Both the position numbers and the translations under genes were made by a program. Of a DNA stretch of 64,000 nucleotides, positions 4,924 through 58,274 are shown piece by piece. Position 1 is the stretch's first letter. Every line of letters starts with the position of its first letter. The DNA lies in NCBI RefSeq assembly GCF_030463565.1, contig NC_134656.1:1803001-1867000 (forward strand), written 5' to 3'. The DNA is from Pelecanus crispus. Lineage: Eukaryota; Chordata; Aves; Pelecaniformes; Pelecanidae. The notes under the pieces were generated by a model, which saw only the letters and a program-made list of their open reading frames with translations, searched no databases and was not told the origin of the DNA.

Positions 4924-6296
4924 AGGATCCGCACCCCGCATGGCTCTGCAGCCTGGATGGCTCCGCATGCTGGATGGCCGCGCGCAGCACGTGGCTCTGC
5001 ACCCAAACCAGCTCCGCACCCACGCGGCTCCGCGCACCGCACAGTCCTGTACCCTGCGCAGCTTCGCACCCATAGGGCCCTGTACCCCATATGGCCTGTG
5101 TGCCCTGCAGCCCCGCACCCCACGAGCAGCGCGGGCAAGGCCCCGGCTCCCTCTGCGACACCACCGGGGCGAGCGGCACCGCAGCCCAGAGCCGGCCCCC
5201 AGCATTTGGGGACCACGGGGGCATCTCGCAGGGATGTGGCACCGGGATGCCGCCCCGCAGAGCCGCCCTGCCCGGGAAGGGGGTCAGGCTGGTGGCACCC
5301 GCGCCCTTGTGCAACGGGCAGGCGATGCTCGTGGGAGTTGCACAACGCCGGAGCCGCCAGCTCAGCGCTTCGGCCGGCGTTAACGATTAAACCGGAGCGG
5401 GGGGCGGCCGGCGGAGCCACCACTCGGGTCCCGCTGCGGCAGAGCCCGGGCTGGTTATCCTAACTCCGGGAGGAGGAGAGGCGTCCCGCCTGCCGCGGGG
5501 CTCGCCCGCGAACTCATCCGGGGCCACGCTAACGAGGGCCGCGGGGCCAGAGCCCACCGGGGCCAGGACAGAGCTGTGGGGACGAAGGCTGCTCTGGCCG
5601 CGCTCCTCCTCCTGTGCACCCCACCGCGGCCCCGCCAGCCAGCCGGGACACTCCGGGTCCCCGATCCCCGGCAGCCCTGGCTCAGCCGGGGCAGGTTTGG
5701 GTGCCCCAGTTCCCGGGGGGACGCTGCCCTTCTCCCGGCCGCCCCCCACCTTTCTGCAGCATGCAAGGGGACCCCGCGGGTGGCCGTGCCGGGTGGCACC
5801 CAGTCTCGTGGCCGGGCACGTGGGGGCTTTCCCGGTTTGCTGTGGGGTTTGGGGTTTTTTTTTTTTTTTTTACGCTTACGAAAGCGCCTGGCCCCGGGCA
5901 TGGCGCGGGGCGGAGGTGGCACCTCCAGCCACCCCCGAGGGCAGGGGACAAGGGGTGGCCGAGCGCCCCAGGACTCCTGCCCCTCCGCCACGCTGGGGAC
6001 GTGGCTCTGCAGAGCGGGGGATCCCCAGCACCCCCGTGGCCCTGGGCCGAGGGGAGCACCCGTGTTGGCCAGCCCAGGGCTGCCAGGGGCACGGCTGGGG
6101 GGCACAGGCGGGGGGGACAGGCGGGAGCCACCAGCCAGGACGGCCGCGCGGACTCTGTCCTGGCCTTCAGGCTGCGGGCTGGTAAATCAAACAGCAGCAG
6201 GGCCTGGGCTGCCCCACGCCGGCGCCCGCTGCTCGCCGCACCGCACGTTTTGGGGAAGGCGAGGAGCAGAGTGTGGGTGGGCGCCAGCCTGGGCAC
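4924..6296. other. GC-rich spacer between two minisatellites
   Basis: The first ~200 bases are decayed copies of the preceding array. A T17-like tract sits at about 5854-5870. No exon or recognisable gene was seen. Confidence 0.6.
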
Positions 6297-7265
6297 CCCA
6301 TGCACCCCAGTAACCCATGCACCCCAGTACCCCATGCATCCCATGCACCCAGGGCACCCCAGCACCCCTTGCACCTCATGCATCCCATGCACCCAGGGCA
6401 CCCCATGCACCCCAGCACCCCATCGAACCCATGCACCCCATGCACCCCAGTACCCCATGCACCCCATGCATCCCATGCACCCAGGGCACCCCAGTACCCC
6501 ATGCATCCCATGCACCCAGGGCACCCCATGCATCCCAGCACCCCATGCATCCCATGCACCCAGGGCACCCCATGCACCCCAGTACCCCATGCACCCCATC
6601 CAACCCATGCATCCCATGCACCCAGGGCACCCCATGAACCCCAGCACCCCATGCATCCCATGCACCCAGGGCACCCTATGCACCCCAGTACCCTGGGCAC
6701 TCTATGCACCCCCATGCACAAAGAGCACCCTATGCACCACGTACCCTGGTACCCCATGCACAAAGGGCACCCCAGCACCCCAGGCACCCTATGCACCCTC
6801 GTACCCCATGCACCCCATGGACCCCATGCACCCCGGCACCCCATGCACCCCCCGCACCCCATGCACCCTGGCACCCCATGCACCCCATGGACCCCATGCA
6901 CCCCATGCAAGCTGGCACCCCATGGACCCCATGCACCCCGGCACCCCATGCACCCCGGCACCCCATGCACCCCATGCACCCCATGCACCCCATGGACCCC
7001 GGCACCCCATGCACCCCATGCACCCTGGCACCCCATGCACCCCATGCACCCCATGCACCCCATGGACCCCATGCACCCCGGCACCCCATGCACCCCCCGC
7101 ACCCCATGCACCCTGGCACCCCATGCACCCCATGGACCCCATGCACCCCATGCAAGCTGGCACCCCATGGACCCCATGCACCCCGGCACCCCATGCACCC
7201 CATGCACCCTGGCACCCCATGCACCCCATGCACCCCGGCACCCCATGCACCCCCCGCACCCCAGC
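6297..7265 (+). repeat. 9-bp minisatellite (ATGCACCCC)
   Basis: About 970 bp of ATGCACCCC copies and close variants (ATGCATCCC, ATGGACCCC, GGGCACCCC, and the 8-bp GGCACCCC). The first half has a higher-order pattern of ATGCATCCC-ATGCACCCA-GGGCACCCC. The second half is dominated by ATGCACCCC, ATGGACCCC and GGCACCCC, including a block from about 6815 that is repeated almost exactly from about 7055. The period of 9 makes open frames rich in Met-His-Pro; nothing suggests translation. Confidence 0.96.
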
Positions 7266-7433
7266 ACCCCCCACCCAGCCCCGCCGTTCTGGGTGCCTTT
7301 CGGCAGCGGTCCCTCGGGGCGGGCAGGACTGACCCACCCTGCACCGGGCCCGGGACCCCTCTCCCGCCGGGAGCCGCTCTCGCACCCCAAAACTGCAGAC
7401 ACTCCCCCCGCAGCAGAAGGACGCTGCCGCGTT

Positions 7434-11400: not shown

Positions 11401-13121
11401 GGGGTCCCAGCACCTCGGTGGGTGATGGAGAGGAATGAAGGGTCCCGGGGTGGGGGTTCCTCGTCTGTCCTCACCGCAGCCCCCGCTTTGCTCTCGCTGG
11501 CAGGAAGCTCTCGGGCAAGGCGGGCATCGACGAGGTGATGGCGGCCACGGTGCTCACCAGCCTCTCCACCAGCCCACTGGTGCTCGGCCACCCGCCCGCC
11601 GCCCCCCGCCCCAGGTAAGAGCGTGCCCCTGTCCCCCCCACCCCATCGCTGGACACGTGTCCCATGGCAGGCCCTGACCTTCCTCCTCCTCCTCGCCAGA
11701 GCCCGGCGGTGAGGTCTGGAAAGAGGCGCCCGCCATGTCCTCCAGCTGCAGCAGCAGCAGCAACACCAGCGGGGACTGGAGCTGGGACCCCCCCAGCGAC
11801 CGCTCCACCCCCTCCACCCCCTCGCCCCCGCTCTCCAGCCACGTCCCCAGCACCTTCCTGCCCGCCCCGCTGCCGGACGAAGGCCCCGATGAGCCCGACG
11901 GCACCCACTTCGTCTTCGGAGAGCCCATCCCTCGGAAGAGGAAGGTGGGATGAAGTTGGGGATGATGATGGGGGGGAGGTTGGGGATGGGGATAGTGGGG
12001 ACGGGGATGAAGAGGAGGATGAGGTTGGGGATGATGATGGGGATGATGCTGAGGATGAGGATGATGCTGGGGATGCAGATACCGCTGGGGATGACAGTGG
12101 GGTTTGGGATGGGGATGGAGATGGAGCTGGGGATGATGATGGAGCTGGGGATGACGATGGGGATGACGCTGGGGACGGGGCTGCCAGCCTGACGCCCCTC
12201 TCCTGCAGAACTCCACCAAGGTGATGTTCAAGTGCTTGTGGAAGAGCTGCGGCAAAGTCCTCAGCAGCTCCTCAGGGATGCAGAAGCACATCCGAACCAT
12301 GCACCTTGGGTAAGCGCCTGGGGTCCCCCCCGGACACCCCCAGCCCCCCCGGTGCCCCCCGCCGGGGTCCTGCCGTGGGGGGAGAGAGCCGCCCCAGCCA
12401 GACTCCGCTCTCCCCGCAGCCGGAAAGCCGACCTCGAGCAGAGCGACGGCGAGGAGGACTTCTACTACACGGAGCTGGACGTGGACGTGGACTCGCTGAC
12501 GGACGGGCTCTCCAGCCTGACGCCCGTCTCGCCCACCTCCTCGGTGCCGCCCGCCTTCCCCGGCCCCGAGGCGCAGGGCCCGGCGCCGCCGGCGTTGCCG
12601 ATCCCGGACCTGGCGCTGGCGTCCCCCCGCAGCCCCCCGGCCCCCCCCGGCCTCTACCACGTCCACACCGACCACGCGTACCAGGTGAGGGGATGTTGGG
12701 GCGGGGGGAAAATCCGGGGACGGAGGGGCTGCCGCCGCGCTCGCCGCATCACCGTCACCCTCCACGCCTCCCCAGCCGCTCGGTGCCGGCGGCGCAGCCG
12801 AGCTCTGACGCGGGGCCGTGTCCTCTCTCGGCAGGGCTGCCCGGCCCCGCCGCGGCCACCGGTGCCCCCCGCCGCGCCCGCCCCGCCGCCGCCCAAGCCA
12901 CCCGCCGTCCCCAGGTGAGCCATCGCCATCCGCGCCCCCGTCCCCCTCGGGCCCGTGTCGTCCCCCCCGCGCCCCGTGACGTGTCCCCTCGTGTCCCCTC
13001 TGCCCGCAGGAGGCCGCGGGGGGAGGCCAAGAAGTGCCGCAAGGTGTACGGCATGGAGAACCGGGAGATGTGGTGCACGGCGTGCCGCTGGAAGAAGGCC
13101 TGCCAGCGCTTCCTCGACTGA
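8291..13121 (+). CDS. SLC2A4RG: SLC2A4RG (HDBP1/GEF), C2H2 and C-clamp transcription factor
   Basis: Eight coding exons: 8291-8419, 10298-10479, 11504-11614, 11700-11944, 12209-12309, 12420-12684, 12835-12914 and 13010-13121. The product is about 407 residues if one surplus base near the exon 3 end is an error (human about 387). The family (SLC2A4RG, ZNF395, ZNF704) is nuclear and binds the GLUT4 and huntingtin gene promoters. Seen here: [17 protein letters not shown], a Ser-rich [10 protein letters not shown] block, the basic signal PRKRK, one C2H2 finger ([11 protein letters not shown]...HIRTMH), the conserved [15 protein letters not shown] block, a Pro-rich region, and a C-terminal C-clamp (KKCRKVYG...[14 protein letters not shown]). 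All phases agree except at exon 3/4, so the coding sum is 1225 nt, one over a multiple of three. I chose ATG 8291 over the in-frame ATG 8171, which overlaps a CCAAT box. Confidence 0.93.
8450..8640 (+). repeat. Long G and C homopolymer runs at the start of SLC2A4RG intron 1
   Basis: Runs of 12 or more G (about 8467-8478 and 8551-8562) and a C16-like run (about 8610-8625) follow exon 1. They could form quadruplexes and are also places where sequence errors are likely. Confidence 0.8.
8690..10262 (+). repeat. ~140-bp GATCC-rich tandem array filling SLC2A4RG intron 1
   Basis: Repeated cores like GGGGGGATCCCTGCTGGATCC occur with GATC at 8947, 9079, 9223, 9369, 9508, 9647, 9802, 9927 and 10236, plus a mutated core near 10072; spacings are about 125-163 bp. 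More diverged copies reach back to about 8690. Each unit has several further GGGATC(C/T) boxes. Many end in a pyrimidine stretch plus TCTGCAG, which looks like a splice acceptor. The last copy ends about 35 bp before the true exon 2 acceptor tract. Confidence 0.88.
10298..10479 (+). CDS. SLC2A4RG: SLC2A4RG exon 2
   Basis: The acceptor is GTCTCTCCCGCAG and the donor is GTAGGA; phase 0 in, phase 2 out. It ends with [10 protein letters not shown], matching SAHIPVPAQ of the human protein. Confidence 0.9.
10480..11503 (+). other. SLC2A4RG: SLC2A4RG intron 2
   Basis: It holds an imperfect ~50-bp duplication (TGTGACCGGCCGTCCCGTGT at about 10649 and 10692) and T-rich runs at about 10950-11025. No further exon was seen. 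Confidence 0.75.
11504..11614 (+). CDS. SLC2A4RG: SLC2A4RG exon 3 (with apparent one-base surplus)
   Basis: The acceptor is CTCGCTGGCAG and the donor is GTAAGA. It encodes [20 protein letters not shown], strongly conserved. The last bases (CGCCCGCCGCCCCCCGCCCCAG, split here at 11592-11614) are C-rich. As written the exon leaves in phase 2, but exon 4 needs phase 1. Removing one C from the run would give a PAPEPGGE join like the human FSPEPGLE. Confidence 0.88.
11700..11944 (+). CDS. SLC2A4RG: SLC2A4RG exon 4: Ser-rich block and basic signal
   Basis: The acceptor is CTCCTCGCCAG and the donor is GTGGGA. It reads [11 protein letters not shown], a serine-rich stretch, [11 protein letters not shown], then [10 protein letters not shown], in the order of the human protein. 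The conserved frame begins two bases into the exon. Confidence 0.9.
11946..12190 (+). repeat. GATG/GGGGATGATG minisatellite filling SLC2A4RG intron 4
   Basis: Almost the whole 264-bp intron is imperfect GATGGGGATG units of 6-12 bp. It carries open frames rich in Asp-Gly-Glu or Met-Gly, which I treat as non-coding because exons 4 and 5 join perfectly without it. Confidence 0.9.
12209..12309 (+). CDS. SLC2A4RG: SLC2A4RG exon 5: C2H2 zinc finger
   Basis: The acceptor is TCTCCTGCAG and the donor is GTAAGC; phase 0 in, phase 2 out. It encodes the finger C-x4-C-x12-H-x4-H in [11 protein letters not shown]...KHIRTMH. Confidence 0.95.
12420..12684 (+). CDS. SLC2A4RG: SLC2A4RG exon 6: acidic [11 protein letters not shown] block
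   Basis: The acceptor is CTCTCCCCGCAG and the donor is GTGAGG; phase 2 in, phase 0 out. The [15 protein letters not shown] and [14 protein letters not shown] segments are family hallmarks, followed by a Pro-rich tail ending DHAYQ. Confidence 0.95.
12835..12914 (+). CDS. SLC2A4RG: SLC2A4RG exon 7: proline-rich linker
   Basis: The acceptor is CTCTCTCGGCAG and the donor is GTGAGC; phase 0 in, phase 2 out. It starts GCPAP (human GCLTP) and is otherwise low-complexity Pro/Ala. Confidence 0.88.
13010..13121 (+). CDS. SLC2A4RG: SLC2A4RG exon 8: C-clamp and stop
   Basis: The acceptor is CTCTGCCCGCAG, in phase 2. It encodes the C-clamp with its four cysteines (CRKVYG, WCTAC, ACQRF) and ends FLD-TGA exactly as in the human protein. 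The C-clamp gives GC-rich DNA contacts in this family. Confidence 0.96.
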
Positions 13122-19827: not shown

Positions 19828-20214
19828 CTAAGAAATCCAGGTAAAATCCTTGTCGTTCTCCCCAGAGTTGTCCTGCTCCTGCGGAGAGTCGACATCTTTG
19901 TCATCATCTAAAATCACATCATCTTGTGACATTCCTACGTCATCCTTCCACTTGATGTCGTCGTCGTCTCCCATCTCCTCGTCTCCTTCCACTTTGATGT
20001 CATCTGGGTCTTCCATGTACTGCCCTTCCCCGGGGTAGCACTCGTCTGGAGACCCTTCTCCTCCGTTGTGGTCCAGGTGACCGGCTATGCCTCGACCAGA
20101 GCAATCGGCACAAACTCCGTGGCGGCGAGAGCCGTGCTTAATCCCCACGCTGGCCGCAGACATGAACACTCGGTTGCACACTTTGCAGACGTATTTTTTA
20201 TCTTTGCTGTGGAC
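19828..20214 (-). CDS. ZBTB46: ZBTB46 exon 5 (canonical last coding exon)
   Basis: The acceptor is CCTTTTTCCAG in phase 0; 128 codons and a TAG at 19828-19830. It starts [13 protein letters not shown] (the His of finger 2, then a degenerate third finger) and [14 protein letters not shown], then an Asp/Glu-rich tail with DIKVEGDEE. It is more acidic than the human tail. Confidence 0.96.
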   Translation of the reverse strand, partial: VHSKDKKYVCKVCNRVFMSAASVGIKHGSRRHGVCADCSGRGIAGHLDHNGGEGSPDECYPGEGQYMEDPDDIKVEGDEEMGDDDDIKWKDDVGMSQDDVILDDDKDVDSPQEQDNSGENDKDFTWIS

Positions 20215-23200: not shown

Positions 23201-26200
23201 AGACCAGGTAAGAAAGTTCAGCGTATCTAGAATCATACAGAGAGAAGTCACCTCAAATCAGAACCAAGAAACTTTTGGTTAAGTTTTTTTTTTTTAAGCT
23301 GAAAATCTTGAGGGTATGACGGGGTAGCGCTTCCTTCTGGACACAGCCTGTTCACTGCAACGGGGCGAGAAACCTCGGTTTATGCGCTGCCACCACACAG
23401 AAGTCTCACTTGAGATGCAAAGATTTCAGAAAGAAAATCTTGGTTTTACTTTAATCGTCCAAAGAAAACAAGCATTCCTATTCAATTTAAATATTCTATA
23501 AAGACTATAAAAATATGCTTTTTTAATTTGAGCGAAAAAACCTAAAATAGCCCCTTTTGTCTTTGGTCATCAGTTGAGGAACTGAGAGAGACATGGGGTT
23601 TGGCGTGTCAAACCTTCTTCCTTTTCCTCCACGTTATTTTTATAACACGTATTTTTATTTGATGTACACCAGCATTCAACTTTCCAGATTTACCTGAGCG
23701 TTGACAATCAAGCCCCAAAGCGTCATTTGCGCCAGCAATAAGATGACGAGACAAGCAAAGCGTACGAATCCAGCAGCGCATCTTGCCACAAGCACTTCAG
23801 CCAGCCTGCACGACTGCTTTTGTAAATGAAGATCACGGTGCCATCTACACGTAAGAAAATACCCCTTTTCATAGCTTCATTTCAAAAGAAACTTCAGATA
23901 AAGTTCAGAAACTGGAATTTTTCTGAGGCGTTGCTTACAACGGTACCCCAAAAAATCCCAAATCCCTGCCCTTTATTCTTCAGTGCATCCATTCCAAGAT
24001 ACCTGGGAGTAATTTACGGCTCTTCGGAAATAAAAACAAATCGGTACTGCCAGTGTTACGCTTTTTTCAGGAATTGGCACTAAAAATCTGTAATCCAGCT
24101 GGTATTTTCTAACCTAGCTTAATTCCTGACGTAAAAGAAGTCATACAGAGATTCAGACAGACATATATCATCTCCTCTACGTGTTCACAAATAGCTGATT
24201 TCATCTGCCTGGGTGTAGAACAGAACTTGAACTTCAGACTCAACAGAACCTAGAATGATTCCAGCAGCAAAAAAAAAAAGAGAGAACTAAAATTCATTTG
24301 CAGATCACCTCAGTTTCAGTCCTACAGGGCATAATGCACTTTCCTGCCTTCTCCACGGTACGTAAAGATATGCTGACTCTCACTAGTATAGCAATTTATA
24401 GAGCAAGAAAAGGAACTGCAAATTTTGTTACGCTTGAACCAAGTTGCACCACTTTTACTAAATGGCCTTTGAAGGAAGGTATGCAAGGGGACGCACGCGC
24501 TTGCAGGACTGGGATGAGGGCACTGAAGTTCTTTGTGGCTTTTTGAGAATTACAACCAGGAAAACATTAACAATCTAAGCACACCTCCTCCAGTAAGATA
24601 GTCTTTACATTCAAAATTTCATAGATAATATGATATATATAATATAAATATGGAAAAAGTTATTTAAATTACCTCAACAAATCAATTCTTAAGTCACTGA
24701 AACTGTCGACACCCTTGTGATTTTTTTTTTTTAATATCTCGCTGTATTAGGACCTCACAGCTACCATCCTCAGTATTTAGAAAAACCTCAAGTTTCCTCT
24801 ACAAGCTTAATTAGAAGGGCAACAGAGCTTGCTGGCGTGCATTGCTGAAATAATTACGTAGAAACTATTTGCTCTTCCACAATATCACCTCTATACCGAG
24901 CTTTGAGAAACCACTTTAGGATGGCACATTAATTCTCCCCTGAAAAAAAACCCCAAAATTTGGCTTAACATTCTGTTTCTGAAGAGGCTGTGAAAAGCCA
25001 GACCATGGCACCAGCCAGCCTCCTAGTCGGTTTTGAGCAGCTGTCTTTAATAAGGCGTAACATTATTTTCGATAACTAAGCATTACCAGACCAGAGCAGC
25101 TTTGCCTCGAATTCTCCTTGCTGAGCAACTTATTTTAAAACTTTCTGCATCGAGTCATTCAACCTATTAAAAAAAAAAAAAAATTTCCTTTTCCATCCTG
25201 CAGACAGGATTAGCCATTCTACCTGCCGTCCCTAAGGCCCAGGCTCTCCCTCTTGCTGGAGAGCAAGGCTGGGTTTGCGAGGCTGGCTCAGCCCGGACGG
25301 TGCCGACCGCTTCCAGGCGCAAGTCGGGAACCCTCCGGCTGAGCCAGGAGAGCCGCTGGAGGGTAGCTCTGGACGCGCAGGCAGCACAACACGGGCCCTT
25401 TGAAAGGTGGGGGGAAAAAGAAAGATACTGGAGAAGCCTTCAGAGGAGCCCCGGAGGGGAAAACAAAGCACAGCCCTAAGCCACCTGAAGCTCCGGTTAT
25501 CTTTAAGCCGAGCGAATCGGCTGTTCCCACCCAGCGCCTGCCCTCTTACCAAGGTGTGCCGCTTCATGTGCTCCCGACGGGTGAACTTCTTCCCACAGAT
25601 CTCACAGGGATAGGGTCTTTCTCCCGTGTGGGATCGCATGTGTCTCTTCAGGATGCACTGGTGCATGGCTGAAAAACTGCAGTACGGGCACTTGAATTTC
25701 TTCCTGATGACCGTGAACTCGTTGACTGTAAGAGAGCAAGCAAAACACGCAGATTACTTTCAGAATGCCTCAAAACGGCCAGTCTTCTCGTTTACTACTT
25801 CACTGTTGAATTAGTTCACTGTGAAATCACACTCTCACCTCTGAACCACCTACGATTTTTTTTAATCCTTATATTATTGCACTCACGTTATTAAAGCTAA
25901 GAACTTCAAGCACCTTCATCAGAGCAGCTTTTGAACAAGCCAATACACAAACATTTAGCAACACTCTGCAACACACATTGCCTAACACTTGCTGAATGGC
26001 AAATAAAGAGGGCTGACGATCTGCTGTAATTCTGATTTATTATAATGAATTATCCTAAGTATCAAGATCTAAAATTCTAACACTATTAGTTGTGGGACGA
26101 GTAGCTAGCCGTGAACAGAGGACCACAAACGTTAACACCCCGACAGTGCCATGCGCTTTAGTTTTATTTATGGGGCGATGCAAGAACGTCATCGCACCCT

Positions 26201-29200: not shown

Positions 29201-32200
29201 ATCGAGACCATTAACAGTAGTGCCACAGATACCAGCTACTGGACACAACTATAGGAAGAACAGCACCAAGAAACGGAGACTGTAACACAAACAGTGCCAT
29301 AGTAAAAATCCATGTACTTAACTTCACTAAAATATTTACAGAAGACGTGCATTTTTAAAACCAACACAATAACACTTGGAAAAAAGCCTTTGGTATTGTT
29401 GTCTCGAGTAACTTTACTTATTTCACTGAGGCTGTTGCATGCAGTAGGCTCCTACATCCCTGACTTGGGAGACGGAAAAGCACCAGCGACACCCTGCCTG
29501 ACAGAGCTACCTTGTATTAACTCTGTAAACCGATACGCAGTTAATAATCACTGAAACACTACACGCATTTGGTTATTACGAAGAATTCACAAACTTTAAG
29601 AGAATTCTTGTCCGCCTAATCCTCCTTATATTTAAGGTTATAAACAGCAAGGTGCAATTTAAGTGTCAGACTTACACTTCCCATCAGCTTCCCATGCCAT
29701 TTTCTAACACAAAAATCCTGCTTTTAAAAAGTTTTCTACACAAACTCTGTGAGCTTCTGCTCTGTTGCATCCTATGGTTCTAACATTTTAAAAAACCCAC
29801 TCCTGATCCTGAAGGGAAACACTGGAAATTCTCAGTGCTGAAGCCAGGAAGCACTCTGATGTGCAGGCCAAGTAAAATACTACCTAAACCTCTGTTAGAG
29901 AGAATGAGTTGACCTGACTGTAGAAAAATAGTTCCACGTTGAATTAAGTTCTCAAATACGAGGAAAATGAACAAACGTGAAATGTCATTAACTATTATCA
30001 TGTGAACGAAGCCTTTCAAAATTTGCTGAAATTACTTTTGCTGGCATCTTTTCCAATTCAGACAAATCCTACCACACTGCTCCCAAATTTCCAGATAAGA
30101 CTCATTTTGGTCACAACTTTCTCTTCTGGCTCAGCTTTCTCCTTCCTCCCTTGCCGGTTATTTAAGAGCAAAATAAGTTACGAGGCAATTAAACTGACAT
30201 CTGTAACGAGGGAAGCTGACAGACTACAAGCTATACATTCACAGACAGCCGTGATCCACAATACCAAAGACGTGTGTGGGAACAAGAGCGGAAAAACATG
30301 AACATGACTTTGCAAAAACATAAAATAAAAAAAAGATGGAAGTGTCGTGTACTACACTGATTATATAGGAACATATTCTCAACTCAAACAAAGAGCAAGA
30401 ACTAAGCCAAGCAGGGAAACTCTGGCTTCCCAACCTGCAGAAATGCAGCCCAGCCGCGGCACGGAGCCGTCGCCCCGAAGCTCCGACCCACAGCAGGAAC
30501 GGGCAGAGCAGCGCTGCACCAGAATGTACCTGCTCCCTCTCTACGAGAGCAAGGGCAGCAGCACCGGGATGCTCTCTCTCACCTAGCTTTCCGCAGGAAA
30601 CAGCTCTGCAAGAAACTCTCCGCTGGACACCTCCAGGCTGCTCAAGTCCACTTTGTGCACAACCAAATATTTCTCATTTTTGTCTCCCTGAGATGCAACG
30701 ATATTATGAGAAAGAACTTTTCTGAAGAACATTAAAGATCATTTGCAGAAGTTGCTTTCGTCTCCTCAGCTGCCTCTCTCGCACGTGAAGGCAAGCAACC
30801 CTCCGACGCTAAAGCTCAAGCTGCTGACAAGCTGTGCTGTACGCAGTGCAGCTGGAAAGCACTACACTTAATTACGCTACTTTCGTTTAACAGTTCTTAT
30901 AATCTGGTTTTGTATGTAAATATATAGCAAGAGACACAGAAATATTTAATCTTGTAAAAAAATAAATGAATTTTTAAAATGCATTTCATATAATAAAATA
31001 GGAATTACAGTAAGACTTCTACCCTCCAGTAACAACCGTTACTGATTTTGTATGTGCACCCTAGGTTACAATTAGATCTTCTGTGGAAACCCTCCTCTCC
31101 TCTACATTCAGTTTGGCTAACTTAGTTATGCAAAACAAACGAGTCAGAAAATTTACAGAATTCCTGAAAGCCACAGCCATACTCCAGTATATTTTAAAGA
31201 GAGTCCCAAAAATACCCAAACATAATATCAATAAAATACACAAGCTTTGCAACTTTCAAGCCCAAATAATATACCCTGCTGCACATACGAACAAGCAGCA
31301 TGTTTTTCTCCTTTAAATGACAGAGAAAACCAGACTTACAAACAGCTTACGGGACTGAGTAACCCAGTGCTTCCACAGCTCCTAATCTCAAGCTGAAAAA
31401 CCCTGAAATGCCCGAATTGTCTCATGGACAGAGCACTAGACCAGAACTCAGAAGACTGAATTCTGCTATTAATCCTATTGCTAACACGCTCAACAAGCTG
31501 AGGTATGTTATTTTCCCAGGGAATACAAGGAAAAACATCACCATTTCTTTTATAAAGCACTTTGAGATCTACTGATAAAAAAAGTTTAAGGTAGTATAAG
31601 CACACAGTATGATTGCACCAATAAGACAGCCAAAGTGCCCCTTATATGGACTGACAAAAGTTATCTCTGCACAAAAATTGCACCGTGGCTGCAGTTACGC
31701 AGTATCTGGAACCAGCACACTATCAACCTGATCAGCTTTGGGGAGTTACTCCATTGTATTACACCTGTGGTACGTTTATTTGCAGCACCAGAACAATGCA
31801 ACAATTTGCTTTTCCTAGTTTAAAAGCAGCGTCTCATATACGCAAACAGTAGCTACGCATCCTCAGGATCCTCATTTTGTCCTACGCTGTCCAAAAGCCC
31901 GAACCCGCCCAGCTGGACAGAGCCCAGGCAACACGCTTTCACGTGGTTAGCGAGGTTCTTCTGTGTGCCGAAGCCCTTGCCACAGAAGAGACACACAAAA
32001 GTACGCTCGTTCGAGTGCACAGACGTAAGATGCCGGTTCAAGTCTGTCTTGTCTCGAAACAGCTTGGCACAGTTAGGACACCGCATCTTCTTACAGTTGA
32101 AGTGGATGGTCTTCTCATGCCGATCCATGTTTGATTTCAGGGTGAAGCTCGCGGGGCATTTGGAGCACTGGAAGCGGGCGAGCTGGCCAGGAGGCACGCT

Positions 32201-35200
32201 GTCAGCAAGGCCAGGCCGGGAGCAGTCGAGCAAGTGGAATGGGAGAAGCATGGAGAAAGCATGCTCGTGGATGTGCTCCTTCAGCTCTTCAGCACACTGG
32301 AAAACCCTCCTGCAGAAAGCACAGGTCAGCCTCTTGGCTAGGGCTGAATCCAGGAACTGGCCATCAGTGGTTACGTCCATGTCTTCAGATCTCAAGAAAC
32401 TCATACCTAAAATAGAAATACACGTACACACGTACAAATCAGTGTCTTCTGGTGTAAAATAGTAGTTAAAAAAATACTTTTCTCTCTGCTTACCTGAATC
32501 AGAGTTATCGAACTGCCACAGTGCTACAAATCCATCATAACTGGCCTGCAAATGAAGAGCGCACTTAAGTTAAGGCAAGCGTTTACAAGAACACATCTTG
32601 GTAGTCAGTGCTCAGACTCCCATCTTCACGTGGCCTTCACCCCTTCTTTAACGGAGCCTCATCGTTTGACTCGCCAACCCTATTTGCCTTCACAAAGCTT
32701 CCACTGCCAAAGCAGCTAAGTTAACCGGGCCGTATTTTGCAGGATTTGGTGTTTAAAGACAGTAATCAACATGCCTATTTAGGTCCTGGGTAACTACTCA
32801 GTTTTCAGTCTCACTAAGCATCTGCAGCTCCCACTCAGGCCAGTGGGAAAGAAACACCGGATAGAAAATGTCTAGCGGATACAACAGAACTGGAAAATCT
32901 TCCCTTAGCCCTACATAGCTTCTTTTTCTTTCCACATAGAAAAGCCCATAGAAAACAAACACCTTCTGGGTAGTTCCCTTTATGCAATGCTCTCTGGCAC
33001 TGCTGATCCAAATTATAAATAAAAGCTGGTATTTTTTTTTTTTTTCATACAGCATTTGCAATATGCCAGCGTGCAGCAGATGGCAACCCTCTATGAGGCA
33101 GAGGCGTGATGCAGCCTGGGCAGGTCTGCTGGAGACCGGGCAAGCGGCTACCAGCCCATCTTCCCAGCTCGCTTTCCTCTAAGGCGACTGCAAAGGAAAA
33201 TCTGTGTTTCCACCCGTTTGTTTAATGGAACTACAGTCTCATTCAAAAACACTAAGACTAAGAAATGCCACAGAAAGCTATGGATTTTCTGTCAAACTCC
33301 TGACTCCTGTAAGACAGAAAGCCAGCCTGCTTCCATCCGAATTTAGACAGTTACAAGAAACTCAAATGCAAAACAGCACAAGTGGGCAATGGATAGCTGG
33401 GTTCTCAGCTACCTTTATGCCATTATTATATTCTTGTATGCAATGTTTTGCAAAGGCAGGGATTTACAATAAAAAGGGCATGTATACTTAAAAAAAAAAC
33501 AACCCAGTTTTTTGAATGCAAGTTCTGTTGAGGTAAGTCAGAAAGGATAAAATTAGGACAGCACGAGCCCTGACCTCAACAGACTTCTACTTTTAAAATA
33601 ACCTATCTTTAAAAAGAAAAAAAAAACAAAAAAAAACCCAAATCCCCTAACAGATCAAAGTATAAGGTATTATAGTCTTTCAAAGTACTCCTAACTGGGG
33701 AGAATTTGATGAAACAGATACCTTTGCATTTAAATGTCTGCGTTTTTCCCCACGACCTTACCTGGCTCGAGGAAGGCACCTCTCCTTTTATCATGGTTTC
33801 TGGTGACATTTCACCAGAAGAGCAGATCTCAGGGGGGCTCTGAGTGGCAAGGTGTGATGCAGGCAGCGGGGGGGATGGTGCTTCCACTTTGCCATCACAT
33901 TCGCCCCTTGAACGATTCGAGTTGGTGCCAGGCCCTGGGGAACACAGGAAACGAATCTCACCCACGTGAACGAGCACCAGCTGGTGGTTTTAAAAAAGGC
34001 CTCGCAAAGGCAGCGCACCGGCACTCGCAGCTTATCTTCTGTCAGTGGGAGGGAATGCAGCAGGACAGTGATGCCAGGCTTTTTGTTTGTTTTTTAAAAC
34101 CAGCCTCCCCACCCAAAAAGCCTCGTCTGTGCGTGATGTATGCAGCGGAGTTATATCGCGTGGCACGGTCACTAAAGAGTCCGTCGGGAGAAAGAAGCAC
34201 AGCGCAGCGCAAATATCCAGAGCAATCGCATTTCTGAAAGACACCTCTTGGAGAAGCACCGTTTCAAACGCATACGTTTCAACCTTTAAGTAACATACAC
34301 ACAAACTTGATTCTGCTACTAACTTTCTTGAAAATGGATGTCAAAGCTTCAGATCTCAAGATTTGCCCGTGGTGTTTTATTTAATATAGTACCGTCAGTC
34401 CTTGATCTCAAAGTGCTTTACAAAAGATCGGAAAAAAATAATCCTTTCGTTCTACAGCTAGCAAGCATGGAAGTTCAGATATTTGTACAAAACTATTCAA
34501 TTGTACCTGACAGTCGTTGCATTCCAAAAATCCACTGTGGTTAAAAGGAAACCATGATTTGTCCGGCCGAAGCAGAATCGTACCCTCTTGCCTATGCTGT
34601 AGCAACAGCCACACGTAAACAATATTCCAGAAACTGCACTGATGGTCAATGACAAATCTACGTACAAATAAAGACTGTGTAACCAAGATCGGCGTACATT
34701 ACAAGTTGTGAAACGAAGTTTAACAAACACCTTGTCTGAATATTGGAATGACATACTGAGCAAGTCATTATTTTTGAAGGCAAGCAGGCAAAATCAGAAG
34801 CAAATACGGCATAAAAATAAACACGTTCTTCTTTAAAGCACTCTACGCCGTAAAGGCTTTTTTACTTCTAACACAAAAGAGTCTGATTGAAACCTTTACG
34901 CGTATAAAAACCACACTCTTTAATGCAGCTACAAATAACAAGTCAAAGTTTATGCTGTGTCCAAATACAATACACTGTGATCTGGGTCACAACAAAGCAT
35001 CCGAGTGAAACCACACAAAGGTTTCTAAACGCGAACAATCCCAAACCTAACTTTTTATCAGCTATCAAAGGAAATTCTGCTCTTGCGCCACAAGCTGGAT
35101 GTTTGATTTACCTTCCTCCGCTTTGATCGCAGATTTTAATCTTTCACAACTTAGTTAACGCTATGCACGTGTGATAACAATACTTCAAGTTTTCATTCTG

Positions 35201-38200: not shown

Positions 38201-41200
38201 AGGGACCTCAAATGCAGGCTGGAAGGACCTCCCGAGCCATGGCACCCCTCAGTGAGCTGTCGTTTACCCCCTTTTCTAAACTTATCAAGCTTTATTTTTA
38301 AACCCAGTTGGTCCTCTGCCTGCAGCATGCCTGTTCCCGAACTCCGTTTCTCCGCCAGTTAGGCACTCACTAATTTCTAGGCCAAATTTATGACTGCCTT
38401 TTACTCATTTGTCTTTACGCCAAGTGGTCCTTCAGCTTTTAAGTAAAATCTAGAATCCTCCACCCCAGAGAAGGATGATGGATAGAGGGCAGCCCCGTCA
38501 TTATTCCAGTTTATCATGACAGAAGATGAAACCGCCGATTTCACCTGTCACGAGCCACAGATCCGAACACGCGGGGCATAAATCACCCTCGCAGCCGCGC
38601 ATCGATCTACGCTCCCAGCCGCCCCGGTGCCAGCTGAGGGCACTCTTCTCACTGCACGCAAGCCCGGCGATCAAGCTGCTGCACAGGATCTTTGCTACTT
38701 CATTGCCACGAAGGGATCTGCAACCCAGGAGCCCAGTTTGAACCATCTACCTCGGATTTAATTGGAGATCATTCAGCAAGCGAACTACGGTGCAAGTAAC
38801 AAGAACATTGCCTTAGCAATTCTCCCCCAAACGTTAAAGCTGCAGAATAAGGTACAAAAATTTTTTTTCCTCTAAATTTAGAAAGATTTTTTAAAAAATA
38901 ATTCTACTGTTCAGCCATGAGAAGTGAAATGAGATACTAAGACCGACACTATGTTGTGCAGTTTTTTCCTTTTATCATACAACCCAAGTGACCATTAGAA
39001 GTTATCTATTTTTTTGCCATCAAAGAAACTAAAAATAGAATGAAAAGGTCACTTAAGATATTTATTTCATTGGTCAATTTTCTCAGTATAGATTAAAATA
39101 AACCTTTTCTGCTGGAAACTAATACACAGTACTCAGAAAGCCACCGCTTGCTCTATTTCATGTCACAAATGATATCCCCATCTTCTCAGAGTATTATTAA
39201 GAATACAGCATTAATAATTTTTCTTTGTGCACTGGAGAATCAAGCTATTTTACGACTGCAATGAAAAAAATACAAGAGTATGCTGAAAAATAAGCTGTCC
39301 GCACATAATGGTACACATCAGCTGTCTCCAACAGATCACCAGTAGCAAAACCTTCGTTTCCACGAGCGAGTATAACAAAACAATCGATAGCTGCTCATTA
39401 CTTAGAGGTCTAAAAGCAAGTAGCAAGAAGTAAAGATCACGTGATCTTCAAAATCCCAACTGTTTCTACAGACATGGGAGCAACAGTCAAGCCTCCTTTC
39501 AACATTGGGCAATTTTGGATTCAAAACCTTTGCAGCTACTTCTTTTACCCTAAGGACTCAACTACTTTGTATTTTGTTTGTAAGTACCATTTTGCAAACA
39601 AGCGAAAGAGAAATTTGAGGACAAGCGCTACATACGCATACACGACATACTTCCTTCCACGGCTTCAGCAGTTAACATTGAAGTTGGATCAATACCAGAC
39701 ACAGGTTTCCAAATTTTAGGGGAAGTGGGATTAGGCAGGAATTAAAACTGGATATAAACATATCAGCAGTAATAAACGAGACGGTGACCTGCATTTTCTT
39801 CTCGCTAAAGATTTCACTTAAAGCAGCAGTAAACAAAAAAATATAAAAACCACAAACTTACGAGAGAGAGAATGCGTGCCTTTGGGTAAGTACTCAAACA
39901 GCAGAGAACTATCCTCTCCCAGCATGTCGGCTTTCAGAGACAGCAAACTGTTCTTACTCATGAGAGCCGCGCGCAGGTTGGCGACGGTGGCAGCCTGGAG
40001 CGCATCCTCCTTCTCTGGGGTCAGGGGCTGAGAGATGTAGCTGGCCTCCCCACCGAGGAGGGCTTCGTCGACGTTCGCGTAGGGGTCGGGGCGCTCCACC
40101 CTGCTGTCCGAGCTGCTGGGCTCTGTGACCGTCACGTCGGCACCTGCGTGACGAAAGAAGCCGTCAGAGACGCAAACGAATTCCCGCGATGCGGCCCACC
40201 GACCACGCACGCCCGTCTAACCGGGGGCCCAAACAACCGAGAACCAGGCGCTCACCACCACCTCATTTGGCCTTACTGCCGCTCTGCAGGCCAGAGTGCT
40301 GCTTCTTTTAAGAAAGACATTGAGGCGCTGGAGCGTGTCCAGAGAAGGGCAGCGGAGCTGGGGAAGGGTCTGGAGCACAGGGCTGGTGGGGAGCGGCTGA
40401 GGGAGCTGGGGGTGTTCAGCCTGGAGAAGAGGAGGCTGAGGGGAGACCTCATCGCTCTCTACAGCTGCCTGAAAGGAGAGTGTAGCGAGGGGGTGTCGGG
40501 CTCTTCTCCCAAGTAGTTAGCGATAGGACAAGAGGAAATGGGTTTAAGCTGCGCCAGGAGAGGTTTAGGCTGGAAATTAGGAGAAATTTCTTCACAGAAA
40601 GGGTGGTCAAGCATTGGAACAGGCTGCCCAGAGAGGTGGGGGAGTCCCCATCCCTGGAAGTGTTCAAAAAACGGGCAGAGGTGGCACTTGGGGACATGGT
40701 TCAGTCTGGTCTACCCTTGACTGGTTTAGTGGTGGACTTGGTAGTGTGGGTTAATGGTTGGACTGGATGATCTTAAAGGGCTTTTCCAACCTAAACGATT
40801 CTATGATTCTATGATTCTCACCCCCCGCCCTTTTCCAAAAGTCTGAAGAAGAACTTGGCCGTCCAGAGGCTTGACAGAAAGCGCACCCACCCCACACCCA
40901 CCCCACAGCTGGGGGTTTCTGTTCTTCCAGCCTGTGCCCACCCGCACCCTTCACTCCTGCCCGCCAACGGGCCTTCACTTCAGCGGCATGCACCAAGAAG
41001 GCAGGGCAGAGGGAGAGTGGTGCGTACAACCTCCCCCACGACCAATAACTGGATAAAACTTCATTTATTTAGTTTAAACTAAGGTTTCAGGATAGTCTGC
41101 TAGTACTGAAATGACATTGAAATGTTTAAGTTCCATTTTTTTCAGTAACTGTACTCCGGTAGTCCAAATTTTTATTCTTTCATTTCTTCCCCATGATGAA

Positions 41201-56200: not shown

Positions 56201-58274
56201 TGTAACTGACGTTGTTTAGATTTTATCATCAGCCAATTAGAATAATTACATGCAAGCTTGTTGCAGCAGATAACCATAAAACATAATAAATCTAAAGACA
56301 TTTGTAGAGAGTTACCCGTTCAATGAAAACCACATTTAAACTTCAGTATGTAACCAAGTTAAACATCCTTTTTCAGCCCATAAAGACTCTTCAGACTTTC
56401 AATACTATTTATACTGCTTTTTTAATTTGAATTTGGCAACATAAGGGTATATAATCTCACACACCCTTCTCCTGACCGACTTGGATTCTGGTATGCGATG
56501 AAACACAGGCTAACTCACAGCACAGACTAAGTTCTTCAAGTCAGCTTGAGGGAATTAACACCACACTCCCTTAAAGTCCTTAGGAAAAAAACATCCAAGC
56601 CCCTACATCAGTAGCATTCCTGGATCAATTAATTGCCAGTGCTTAATGAATCAAATAGGACACTTATCTTGAGACAGAAAAATAACTACTGAAGAGTCAA
56701 AAGAAAAGTCGAGAGAACATTGTTCTCCCTGGCTACACACTTTAAAAGCAGCCACTCATCTCAGACTACAAGTATTCACACATCAAAACACATTTTAAGC
56801 CTTAGCAGTACCTCAAAAACACACATTATTCTTAAGAGTTACCAAACACCCATCTCACCATTACTAGCAACAAGCTATGGCGGTTCTCTTACACGTGAGG
56901 AAGCGACACCTGAGTATCAGGAAGTACCGAAGATAGTATCGTTAAGACCAAATTACACCTGCACGTGGTGTAATTACATCACCAATATACTGTGCAAGGA
57001 AAATTCTTCAACCTTGACATCAGTTTGCACACCTGCTAAAATAAATTCCAACCTTTTCTCTCATTAATTCCAACAATTATAATGGTGTTTTGGGGGTGCT
57101 TTAGGCCCCTCTATGTTCAAAAACAAAACTACCAACTCCTTTCACAGGAGAACCAGCCTGCGTTGCCGTGACACTGAGAACCAGTGCTTGGTTCTTTTGA
57201 ATCGTTGGCAACACAAGTTTCTACATTTTTCAGTTTCTGGCAAGCGAATGTATTTCAGAGATTGATAAAGATCACCCTGTAAACAGATCTAATGACCATT
57301 TTTAATTTCAACCACAGAAATGGGAAGAGTGGCTTACTTGGGTCTCGACTGCTGTACGGCCATCCTGAGGCAGGTAAGAAAGATGGCACTGGAGAACTTG
57401 CCCTGCTGTCATCCTCCACTTGCTGCGTAATATGCCGCACAGTTTCTTTATTTTTTCGGTTCTTCCTGCGCCCAGTGGGTTGCCAGCCATCCCCTACTCC
57501 TTGTTCTGAGAACGCATTCTGTATTGCACTATCCTTGGCAGAATGTAGTTCACTCCCTCCATAATGTGACGGTGAAACCTGCTCCTCTTTGATACGTAAA
57601 GACCCATAGCCCATGTCACTAGACCAAAGAGACTGGGATGAAATGTCTTCGTGGCTGTCTGTTTTTGGTTCTTGATCCTCTTTTCCGTAACTGCTCCCTC
57701 CTTCGTGGCAGCTGGCAATAGCTGAATCTCCAGAAGAGTTTGCCGGACTTGTTCGCCGAGCTAACCAGGGAGATATACTCCTGCCAGCCACGACTGCTGA
57801 AATCAAAGCATCTGTGCTACTGCTGGAAGGGGCTCCAAGTTCATAATCGACGAGGTCATCCGAGGCATCGGACTTTATGCTTATGTCGAGAGCTGCTTTT
57901 ATGAAATTGTGACAGGCTTGTACAATATCTGTCATCTGCAGATAGCTAGCGGCTGACATCACCTCAATGACGTTTCTGCTGGTCAGCGCTAGGTGTGCGG
58001 AATACATGAAGTCAATGATTGCTTTGAAGCCTTGCGCAGTTACAATGTCTAAATGGGTGACGGTGGCCTGGTCGGAGGTTTTCTGTACCTGACAGTACAG
58101 CGTTTTGAAGTAGCGACTACTCCCAAGCAGAACGTTTTTGTGAGCCTTAAATATCTTCCCCTCCACTATAATGCAAACATCGCAGAGGATGCCGTGCTGT
58201 CTCTGCTCGTTAAGCTCACGCAGAAGATGACGGTAGTGGGAAGCAATCTCCATATCTTCCTTTCGGTTATTCAT
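19828..58274 (-). CDS. ZBTB46: ZBTB46 canonical isoform, BTB zinc-finger repressor
   Basis: Coding exons on the minus strand: 57338-58274, 39862-40143, 25550-25725 and 19828-20214. They join at consensus sites in phases 1, 1 and 0 to give 593 residues (human 589). ZBTB46 is a nuclear repressor that marks classical dendritic cells and endothelium. Residues about 20-130 are the BTB domain ([20 protein letters not shown]), followed by a conserved disordered region with [19 protein letters not shown] and [17 protein letters not shown]. Two C2H2 fingers follow (C419/C422/H435/H439 and C447/C450/H463/H467), then a degenerate third ([10 protein letters not shown]) and an acidic tail ending DKDFTWIS. 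The start is ATG 58272-58274 ([10 protein letters not shown]), the family start, 33 bases into the exon. An alternative 3' end is described separately. Confidence 0.96.
20215..25549 (-). other. ZBTB46: ZBTB46 intron 4
   Basis: 5.3 kb with AT-rich sequence, homopolymer runs and one short CR1 fragment (21222-21300). No splice-supported exon or RNA gene was seen. Confidence 0.75.
21222..21300 (-). mobile_element. CR1 LINE 3' fragment
   Basis: AATAGTTCAGTTGGAAGGGA and the following CTAGTCCAACTGCCTGACTA match the complement of the avian CR1 3' UTR as I know it. The copy is short and diverged. Confidence 0.75.
25550..25725 (-). CDS. ZBTB46: ZBTB46 exon 4: two C2H2 fingers
   Basis: The acceptor is TGCTCTCTTACAG in phase 1; the donor is GTAAGA in phase 0. 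It encodes KFKCPYCSF...[13 protein letters not shown] and [16 protein letters not shown]. The TGERPY linker is classic. The last zinc ligand of finger 2 comes from exon 5. Confidence 0.97.
25726..31774 (-). other. ZBTB46: ZBTB46 intron 3, part between exon 4 and the alternative terminal exon
   Basis: AT-rich intron. It contains a MIR-like SINE at 31398-31605; otherwise no exon with matching splice sites was seen. Confidence 0.7.
31398..31605 (+). mobile_element. MIR-like SINE remnant
   Basis: It has a tRNA-like head (GACAGAGCACTAGACCAGAA) and the characteristic tail TATAAAGCACTTTGAGATCT followed by a degenerate A-rich end. This order is that of MIR/CORE-type SINEs in sauropsids. It is old and diverged. 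Confidence 0.75.
31775..31780 (-). terminator. Poly(A) signal behind alternative exon C
   Basis: TTTATT on the plus strand gives AATAAA on the minus strand, 72 nt after the TAG. The following minus-strand sequence ACAGGTGTAATACAATGGAG offers weak GU elements. It fits a short terminal exon. Confidence 0.65.
31853..32406 (-). CDS. Alternative ZBTB46 terminal exon C: four zinc fingers and stop
   Basis: The acceptor is TATTTCTATTTTAG in phase 1; 183 codons and a TAG at 31853-31855. It encodes four fingers: [20 protein letters not shown], then [10 protein letters not shown]...[16 protein letters not shown]...HLTSVH, and [10 protein letters not shown]...HVKACC. The last is C2HC. A linker HSNERTFVC joins fingers 3 and 4 in TGERP style; a 31-residue spacer separates 1 and 2. 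The tail [18 protein letters not shown] is acidic. The ordered zinc ligands over 180 codons make this a real protein-coding exon; the parent gene is inferred. Confidence 0.88.
31853..58274 (-). CDS. ZBTB46: ZBTB46 putative alternative isoform with a second zinc-finger terminus
   Basis: Predicted by joining exons 57338-58274 and 39862-40143 to three extra exons inside intron 3: 33762-33934 (A), 32494-32545 (B) and 31853-32406 (C). Phases match at every junction (1, 1, 0, 1), giving 665 residues plus TAG. The BTB domain and linker are kept, while the usual fingers are replaced. A (408-464) is Ser/Pro-rich, B (465-481) is short, and C (483-665) has four fingers: C510/C513/H526/H530, C562/C565/H578/H583, C591/C594/H607/H612 and C620/C623/H636/C640 or C641. 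An AATAAA lies 72 nt past the stop. The exons and sites are seen; their splicing to ZBTB46 is inferred. An independent gene nested in the intron is the alternative, but A has no start codon context or promoter that I can see. Confidence 0.72.
32494..32545 (-). CDS. Alternative ZBTB46 exon B: 52-nt micro-linker
   Basis: The acceptor is CTCTTCATTTGCAG and the donor is GTAAGC; phase 0 in, phase 1 out. It encodes [17 protein letters not shown] plus one base. Its smallness makes it the least certain of the three exons, but only with it do A and C share a frame. Confidence 0.66.
32546..33761 (-). other. Intron between alternative exons A and B
   Basis: 1.2 kb of AT-rich sequence with short A/T tracts (for example 33029-33045). 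No exon or repeat was recognised. The next intron, B to C (32407-32493), is only 87 nt. Confidence 0.65.
33762..33934 (-). CDS. Alternative ZBTB46 exon A: Ser/Pro-rich linker with SUMO motif
   Basis: The acceptor is TTTCCTGTGTTCCCCAG and the donor is GTAAGG; phase 1 in (like ZBTB46 exon 4), phase 0 out, 173 nt. It encodes [19 protein letters not shown], then [25 protein letters not shown] fits the SUMO consensus. No domain is recognised. Confidence 0.72.
33935..39861 (-). other. ZBTB46: ZBTB46 intron 3, part upstream of alternative exon A
   Basis: 5.9 kb of AT-rich intron. It holds a MIR-like tail at 34370-34475. A short match to GGCTGGAAGGACCTCCCGAG near 38219 may be an ancient CR1 scrap. 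No exon was seen. Confidence 0.7.
34370..34475 (-). mobile_element. MIR-like SINE 3' remnant
   Basis: On the minus strand TTGTAAAGCACTTTGAGATC is followed by AAGGACTGACGGTACTATAT, the 3' end pattern of MIR-like SINEs. The head is no longer clear. Confidence 0.65.
39862..40143 (-). CDS. ZBTB46: ZBTB46 exon 3: linker (symmetrical exon)
   Basis: The acceptor is TTTCGTCACGCAG and the donor is GTAAGT; phase 1 on both sides, 282 nt. It encodes [49 protein letters not shown] and [13 protein letters not shown], closely matching human. Skipping it would keep the frame. Confidence 0.96.
40300..40819 (+). mobile_element. CR1 LINE, 5'-truncated 3' end
   Basis: The stretch ATTGAGGCGCTGGAGCGTGT through GAGGAGGCTGAGGGGAGACC and AACAGGCTGCCCAGAGAGGT is the well-known end of CR1. 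It finishes in three ATTCTATG-type tail repeats (40797-40819). It lies about 160 bp upstream of ZBTB46 exon 3, antisense to the gene, and keeps fragments of the ORF2 3' end only. Confidence 0.95.
42265..42420 (-). mobile_element. MIR-like SINE remnant
   Basis: Plus-strand ATCTCCGTTTCACAGGCGGT, then GGTGACTTGCTCAAGGTGTC and GGAGCCAGGATCAGACGGTG, follow the complement of the MIR core (CCATTTTACAGATGAGGAAA, then TGACTTGCCCAAGGTCACAC). Diverged. Confidence 0.7.
46255..47035 (-). mobile_element. CR1 LINE fragment with reverse-transcriptase remnant
   Basis: The 3' end at 46255 begins GAATCATAGAATAAATCAGG on the plus strand. The complement of the CR1 3' region follows (GAGATACCACAACTTCTCTG, GTGCATGGGGTTACTCTGTC). 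Near 46980-47020 the minus strand reads [12 protein letters not shown], a decayed CR1 reverse-transcriptase motif. It has small deletions and no intact frame. Confidence 0.9.
57338..58274 (-). CDS. ZBTB46: ZBTB46 exon 2 (first coding exon): BTB domain
   Basis: The exon begins at 58307 after the acceptor CTTCCCCATACAG; the ATG is at 58274. The donor GTAAGC follows 57338, leaving phase 1. It encodes residues 1-312: the BTB domain, a Ser/Asp-rich linker and [11 protein letters not shown], which fits the phosphorylation-dependent SUMO motif. Confidence 0.96.

Follow-up and report, generated by a model that had tools for sequence, protein, structure and literature searches.

A probable set of ancient alternative zinc-finger exons in the ZBTB46 gene of Pelecanus crispus and other bony vertebrates

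Does the ZBTB46 gene carry a second zinc-finger end besides its canonical one, and if so, in which vertebrates and how is it used? ZBTB46 is a BTB zinc-finger transcription factor with roles in endothelial and classical dendritic cells; in the latter it serves both as a standard marker and as a regulator, and what is known of how it binds DNA derives from mouse and human. In a 64,000-nucleotide stretch of the Pelecanus crispus genome (C14:1803001-1867000 of the assembly, hereafter the window), ZBTB46 exons 3 and 4 enclose three minus-strand exons (A, B and C), which were proposed in an earlier note to form such an end. We consider it very probable that A, B and C belong to ZBTB46 as alternative exons, ancient and functional, that can be joined in four ways.

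The three exons, with good acceptors and GTAAG donors, are borne out by our reading of the splice sites (Table 1; a slash marks the exon boundary). Exon A is flanked by the acceptor ...TTCCCCAG/GG and the donor CAG/GTAAGG, and exon B by ...TTTGCAG/GC and CAG/GTAAGC, while exon C opens after the acceptor ...TATTTTAG/GT and closes with the stop codon TAG. Under a rough donor matrix with approximate frequencies, the donors of A and B rank second and fourth among 2490 minus-strand GTs between 20 and 58 kb. Exons 2 and 3 of ZBTB46 both end in phase 1 and, as the earlier note had claimed, either can be followed by A-B-C: exons 2, 3, A, B and C form an open frame of 665 aa, and exons 2, A, B and C one of 571 aa, the canonical join being 593 aa long. 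The frame, stop and poly(A) hexamer described in that note are likewise present, as are its four fingers, although the fourth is a C2HC finger. An Rfam scan of the whole window returned no match at gathering scores.

Table 1 Features of the ZBTB46 locus in the Pelecanus crispus window (positions are those of the window)
Feature	Position	Strand	Description	Basis
ZBTB46 exon 2, coding part	57338..58274	-	ATG to donor; BTB domain; phase-1 end	translation, splice sites
ZBTB46 exon 3	39862..40143	-	ends ...HSLS + 1 base (phase 1); donor CTC/GTAAGT	
Exon A	33762..33934	-	173 nt: 57 codons + 2 bases completing the phase-1 codon	translation comes directly after HSLS in ZBTB46 proteins annotated in other species
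Exon B	32494..32545	-	52 nt: 17 codons + 1 base	
Exon C, terminal form	31853..32406	-	554 nt; four zinc fingers and stop	
Finger F1	32261..32323	-	C2H2; variable helix	pattern scan and conservation
Finger F2	32102..32167	-	C2H2; contacts -1, 2, 3, 6 (L,S,N,R) invariant in 31/31 rows	pattern scan and conservation
Internal donor in exon C	32094..32095	-	ACT/GTAAGA; in frame with exon 4	donor scan; protein junction in ten bird rows
Finger F3	32015..32080	-	C2H2; contacts -1, 2, 3, 6 (D,T,D,R) invariant in 31/31 rows	pattern scan and conservation
Finger F4	31928..31993	-	C2HC; contacts -1, 2, 3 (T,K,N) invariant in 31/31 rows, position 6 variable; scan end is one residue beyond the ligand Cys	pattern scan and conservation
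AATAAA hexamer	31775..31780	-	72 bases beyond the exon C stop	read from sequence
ZBTB46 exon 4	25550..25725	-	canonical fingers 1-2	
ZBTB46 exon 5	19828..20214	-	canonical finger 3 and C-terminus	

A finger pattern scan, which missed the exon 5 finger, gave six matches in the window (four in exon C, one in exon 4 and one at 12233-12304 on the plus strand) and none in 30 mononucleotide shuffles. On the A-B-C terminus, Pfam zf-C2H2_4 matched four stretches (E 9.1e-15) and zf-C2H2 three (E 1.4e-13). Among 31 of 35 hand-picked rows, the window included and Thamnophis, Phasianus, Alligator and Prinia left out, none of the four fingers varies in its zinc ligands, and 11 of the 12 usual DNA-contact positions of F2-F4 are likewise invariant. 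The F2 of the window is 96-100% identical to that of seven tetrapods and 79-83% to that of four fishes, and the tail is 4-20% identical to the window in the caecilian and fishes. A chance open frame is rejected by this conservation together with the finger scan. The exon C array bears a distant likeness to the canonical array, and with a best segment of 35% identity over 51 aa a recent duplicate of the canonical fingers is not favoured; F2-F4 would probably recognise another DNA site than the canonical fingers do. A copy elsewhere in the genome is also rejected, given that a search of the bird's own 1.31-Gb assembly returned one strong match (425.7 bits), the next scoring 51.6. The terminal form decays in some lineages, since one F2 ligand His and one F3 Cys are lost in Thamnophis, F3 and F4 are disrupted in Phasianus and F4 in Alligator, and the tail is shortened in Prinia, where the zinc ligands are kept.

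Sought in other vertebrates, as the earlier note had suggested, the A-B-C terminus was found after the common BTB part in annotated ZBTB46 proteins of birds, turtles, Alligator, tuatara and lizards, and also in those of monotremes, marsupials, caecilians and ray-finned fishes. Exon 3 is joined to A-B-C in the annotated proteins of many species, and a swan model (P0004) joins exon 2 straight to A, so that the attribution of A-B-C to ZBTB46 stands. The notion of a bird feature does not, because the terminus spans many bony vertebrates, fishes included, and neither does a general loss in mammals, monotreme and marsupial models having it. The terminus is old, and the protein tree broadly tracks species relations, with 9 of its 30 inner branches weakly supported. 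A-B-C are already in databases as predicted isoforms, and most of the relatives' proteins come from automatic prediction (“isoform X”, “isoform 1-T”), with some fish rows automatically labelled PRDM16, HIC1, ZBTB17 or SETD1B instead. In the literature on ZBTB46, lola-like BTB genes, ZFP64 and alternative last exons, covered mainly as titles and abstract openings with most subscription papers outside its scope, we found no alternative ZBTB46 finger terminus described.

The terminus protein search gave 133 matches among 750 candidates, listed as cluster rows whose members are not named individually, and our counts come from the best 120 of the 133. The ZBTB46 BTB start opens 113 of these 120 proteins (105 letter for letter and 8 slightly changed, as judged by eye) and is absent from 7, and among the matches listed none of the 68 rows matching both the BTB start and the exon 3 motif shows a misplaced exon C finger. 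Sorted by motif, 95 of the best 120 contain exon C fingers but no exon 4 finger, 10, all birds, combine F1-F2 with the exon 4 finger, 9 combine A-B with it (one of them, Varanus, also having F1), and 6 contain both finger sets; the last are fish models rather than named RefSeq isoforms, with read-through-like stretches before exon 4. No placental occurs in the best 120 of these 133 matches or in the best 120 of 149 from a second terminus protein search, yet a control intended to show placental canonical proteins next to marsupial ones (best 120 of 854) is likewise placental-free, so the database itself may lack placental ZBTB46. Frog, salamander, shark, lungfish and coelacanth are absent among the terminus matches listed.

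How might such an arrangement work? At the internal donor of exon C the last exon base is 32095 and the intron runs from 32094, within the codons TGT AAG AAG (Cys-Lys-Lys). Exons 2, 3 and B and the internal cut in C share a phase-1 end, so that the 5' exons with the BTB part can be joined in four ways. They would yield (i) with exons 4-5, the canonical three-finger protein; (ii) with A-B-C and its own stop and poly(A) signal, the same BTB module with fingers F1-F4; (iii) with A-B-C cut at the internal donor and followed by exons 4-5, F1-F2 fused to the canonical fingers, as seen in bird models; and (iv) with A-B as cassette exons ahead of exons 4-5, a protein whose canonical fingers follow a lengthened linker. 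Matching protein models exist for each of the four forms in other species, and all four are probably made in Pelecanus crispus. Given the distinct binding site expected for F2-F4, these forms would each recruit the same set of BTB partners, presumably corepressors, but to different genes. One BTB module with a different finger end, as first proposed, is thus a possible product, but the ten bird fusion models and the A-B cassette do not fit a simple second terminus.

It is possible, if short of probable, that in this bird A-B-C are chiefly internal, spliced from the donor at 32095 to exon 4, with F3, F4, the stop and the poly(A) signal the dwindling remains of what was once a terminal exon. Among the matches listed, the ten fusion-type bird rows hold 317 member sequences (191+57+54+5+3+2+2+1+1+1), whereas the bird clusters in which exon C continues past the internal donor number seven, each with a single member, although clusters were formed at 90% identity and may mix splice forms. 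Cys-Lys occupies the donor residue pair in the window and Alligator rows and in 5 of the 6 rows from other birds, and in 0 of the 27 remaining rows, and the disrupted fingers of Phasianus and Alligator point the same way. The sixth other bird row, Hirundo, has Arg-Lys at this pair. However, F3 and F4 are intact in the window, and exon C past the internal donor is 76-84% identical to that of tit, swallow, emu and swan; the terminal form therefore seems to be still maintained here. We put forward equally tentatively a joint reading, in which the terminal exon turned internal in archosaurs, the four-finger form was released from selection in some lineages and placentals lost the whole module. Under such a scenario the Cys-Lys codons between fingers 2 and 3 (TGT-AAG in the window) would supply the splice donor, and the main avian ZBTB46 would consequently be a fusion protein in which two additional fingers precede the canonical set and which reads a composite DNA site; the ZBTB46 of mouse and human would, through the placental loss, be cut down from an ancestral factor that had two DNA-binding ends.

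That A-B-C are splicing noise or a decaying relic, functionless in this species, we regard as improbable: parts of the module have decayed in snake, pheasant and alligator models and placentals are absent among the terminus matches listed, but the frame is intact, the donors of A and B are strong, and finger residues are invariant from fishes to this bird. Least probable of all is an independent small gene inside the ZBTB46 intron, with a start of its own, which we reject because in relatives A-B-C are attached to exon 3 or 2. The seven rows lacking the BTB start would suit it, as would a Sarcophilus model (P0121, 400 aa) whose alternative first exon lies immediately before exon 3, such that internal starts may exist in ZBTB46. 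Exon 3, A and the canonical fingers are, however, all present in that model, the BTB start opens the other 113 rows, and in those of the inspected rows that extend to the BTB start, A follows exon 3 or 2 in frame.

If most bony vertebrates make ZBTB46 with a second finger set, as our preferred reading of ancient alternative exons would have it, the ancestral target range would have been wider. Chicken dendritic cells express ZBTB46, and putative plasmacytoid cells are reported to do so as well (PMC10634274); comparisons of dendritic cells across species, such as those involving these chicken cells, would then have to separate isoforms. The gene would also lend itself well to the study of how terminal exons become internal.

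Compared with placental ZBTB46, the gene, the BTB exon and canonical exons 4-5 are the same here, and the difference lies in the second finger module, which the placental protein is not known to carry; no placental occurs among the terminus matches listed. In Drosophila lola, broad and mod(mdg4), BTB exons are joined to alternative finger exons, and ZBTB46 resembles them in its common BTB part and alternative 3' finger-coding ends, but differs in having two finger modules rather than many, which can be fused in one protein. The likeness to lola and broad drawn in the earlier note accordingly holds for shared BTB 5' exons and two terminal finger sets with their own stops, but not for strictly alternative use; ZBTB46 works partly like lola, and we do not file it as a lola-like arrangement because ten bird models combine F1-F2 with the canonical fingers. 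Trans-splicing is reported for mod(mdg4) (PMC12692577). ZBTB46 would stand as a vertebrate parallel to those insect BTB genes whose finger ends can be exchanged. Among vertebrate genes, ZFP64 has isoforms that carry different finger arrays and, unlike ZBTB46, is not known to have a BTB domain. That ZFP64 has several isoforms is confirmed by PMC12178792, and the likeness to ZBTB46 as described here is that of a vertebrate zinc-finger gene whose isoforms differ in their fingers.

The alternative finger terminus of ZBTB46, which an earlier note had proposed from three minus-strand exons (A, B and C) in intron 3, is real, and its support exceeds what could have been known when the proposal was made. 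All three exons were found where proposed, with their acceptors, GTAAG donors, frame, stop and poly(A) hexamer, and a single open frame runs through A, B and C to the stop. Exons 2 (the BTB exon) and 3 leave phase 1, as does exon B, and the suggested fit to either exon 3 or exon 2 holds, giving open joins of 665 aa via exon 3 and 571 aa via exon 2 alone (canonical join: 593 aa). A direct join of exon 3 to C also stays in frame (590 aa), and the frame is lost if A is skipped or joined directly to exon 4.

Features of the alternative terminus and its neighbours (positions in the window; a slash marks the cut)
Feature	Position	Strand	Remarks
ZBTB46 exon 3	40143-39862	-	upstream neighbour of A-B-C
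Exon A	33934-33762	-	AG acceptor, GTAAG donor
Exon B	32545-32494	-	AG acceptor, GTAAG donor
Exon C	32406-31853	-	AG acceptor, ends in stop
Internal donor in exon C	after base 32095	-	ACT/GTAAGA
AATAAA	31780-31775	-	poly(A) hexamer after exon C stop
ZBTB46 exon 4	25725-25550	-	downstream neighbour of A-B-C

Exon 3 (39862-40143) itself holds an internal cut (ATGA/GTAAGA, protein AALM/SKN), and the AALMRPGTN of emu and Melanerpes models would fit a join from this cut to A. Upstream of exon 2, 61993-62600 is rich in GC and holds repeats of 39 and 45 bases, together with long open frames in both strands. Long minisatellite arrays at 4068-4777 and 6293-7270 (units of 17-127 and 9-44 bases) overlap long stop-free frames. 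Frames at ~500-1673 (+) and 12200-13100 (+) are putatively LIME1- and SLC2A4RG-like, in keeping with the neighbourhood of human ZBTB46.

The four ordered zinc fingers of the proposal were borne out by four zf-C2H2_4 stretches in the exon C protein (Pfam, E 9.1e-15), and by four of the six matches in a finger pattern scan of the whole window, which overlooked the exon 5 finger and gave none in 30 mononucleotide shuffles. F1, F2 and F3 are C2H2 fingers and F4 is C2HC. The array bears a distant likeness to the canonical one (exons 4-5; best segment 35% over 51 aa), and its one strong genome match is its own locus (425.7 bits; next 51.6).

With the A-B-C portion of the 665-aa protein as query, 133 proteins matched, the best 120 of which span birds, turtles, Alligator, Sphenodon, lizards, platypus, echidna, marsupials, two caecilians and fishes (gar, bowfin, sturgeon, paddlefish, reedfish, teleosts); a marsupial query gave 149 matches, with much the same range among the best 120. 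A-B-C proteins are already in databases as predicted isoforms, many of those listed being named ZBTB46, with other automatic names on some fish rows. The ZBTB46 BTB start opens 113 of the 120 (105 letter for letter and 8 slightly changed, judged by eye), and seven have a different or partial N-terminus. A motif test sorts the same best 120 of 133 by their fingers: 95 have those of exon C but not that of exon 4, 10 pair F1-F2 with the exon 4 finger, 9 have A-B together with the exon 4 finger (Varanus, among these, has F1 too), and 6, all fishes, carry both sets. Judged by these predicted proteins, the terminus is an old module of bony vertebrates, broader than first thought: it occurs in birds but is not confined to them. 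Some models show further differences: a 29-residue N-terminal extension ahead of MNNRKEDME in three bird proteins (P0002, P0004, P0183), and an extra cassette of ~23 residues directly ahead of exon 4 in two from Sarcophilus (P0122, P0135); the 618-aa proteins predicted for other marsupials and for monotremes have a length that would fit it.

The earlier note had also asked whether mammals lost the terminus. Monotreme and marsupial models carry it, and no placental appears among the best 120 of 133 (A-B-C query) or the best 120 of 149 (marsupial query), although one would expect such a form to score close to the marsupial proteins. A database control for placental ZBTB46 did not bring any up, its best 120 of 854 matches being marsupials, monotremes, reptiles and birds. 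The absence of the terminus from placentals is apparent and not controlled.

Conservation was assessed by aligning the window with 34 chosen proteins; the counts cover 31 rows, the window among them, and leave out those of snake, pheasant, alligator and Prinia. The zinc ligands of all four fingers are invariant in 31/31 kept rows. Equally fixed, in the usual numbering of finger helices, are positions -1, 2, 3 and 6 in F2 (L, S, N, R) and likewise in F3 (D, T, D, R), as well as positions -1, 2 and 3 in F4 (T, K, N), with position 6 of F4 and the F1 helix variable; in a second alignment of 40 sequences the ligands again fall within invariant columns. Window F2 identity is 96-100% against seven tetrapods and 79-83% against four fishes, and tail identity drops to 4-20% in caecilian and fishes. 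This pattern has the look of a domain kept for DNA contacts, from which we infer DNA binding. In a protein tree of 33 rows, fishes, mammals, turtles and birds form the groups one would expect and the window falls among birds (support 100/98), with 16 of 30 inner branches well supported and 9 weak. The row of the snake Thamnophis (P0049) lacks ligands of F2 and of F3 and ends early, which suggests decay of the module there.

A fusion form, in which exon C is cut at its internal donor and joined to exon 4, is present in bird protein models. The donor is the top-scoring GT of exon C and nearly matches the exon 3 donor (5.46 vs 5.80, from a rough matrix), and its join to exon 4 is in frame (772 aa). 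Among the matches listed, ten proteins, all from birds, contain the junction; eight share one 17-letter reading, with HEKTVHFN in pigeon, one of these, and the variants are HFD/F in Melanerpes and HCH/F in Molothrus. Fusion-type bird clusters among these matches hold 317 member sequences vs 7 for bird rows continuing past the donor, with the clusters, defined at 90% identity, possibly combining splice forms. A Cys-Lys pair lies at the donor in the window, in Alligator and in 5 of the 6 other birds; Hirundo has Arg-Lys, and in the remaining 27 rows Lys follows His, Arg, Gly, Trp or Lys. F3 and F4 are disrupted in Phasianus, and F4 in Alligator. This is most simply explained if archosaurs gained a donor by which the terminal exon became usable internally, its end decaying afterwards in some lineages. 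The Varanus model fuses after F1 through another cut, and so the fusion form may extend beyond birds.

BTB modules of this family dimerise and recruit partners, and splice choice probably determines which fingers the module carries: the canonical fingers only, F1-F4 instead, F1-F2 and the canonical fingers in one chain, or the canonical fingers behind a longer linker. The anatomy, frame and protein models on which this scheme is based are observed, while expression of the forms in Pelecanus crispus, their DNA sites and their target genes are inferred. Among the papers listed by searches of the open literature, none describes this terminus in its title or abstract opening, and a chicken study, in part of its text, treats ZBTB46 as a single gene-level marker (PMC10634274). 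The proposed likeness to insect lola and broad holds in part, as the ZBTB46 arrangement would work partly alike; unlike theirs, its finger sets are not strictly exclusive, being also combined in one chain in some protein models, and consequently we do not file ZBTB46 as a lola/broad arrangement.
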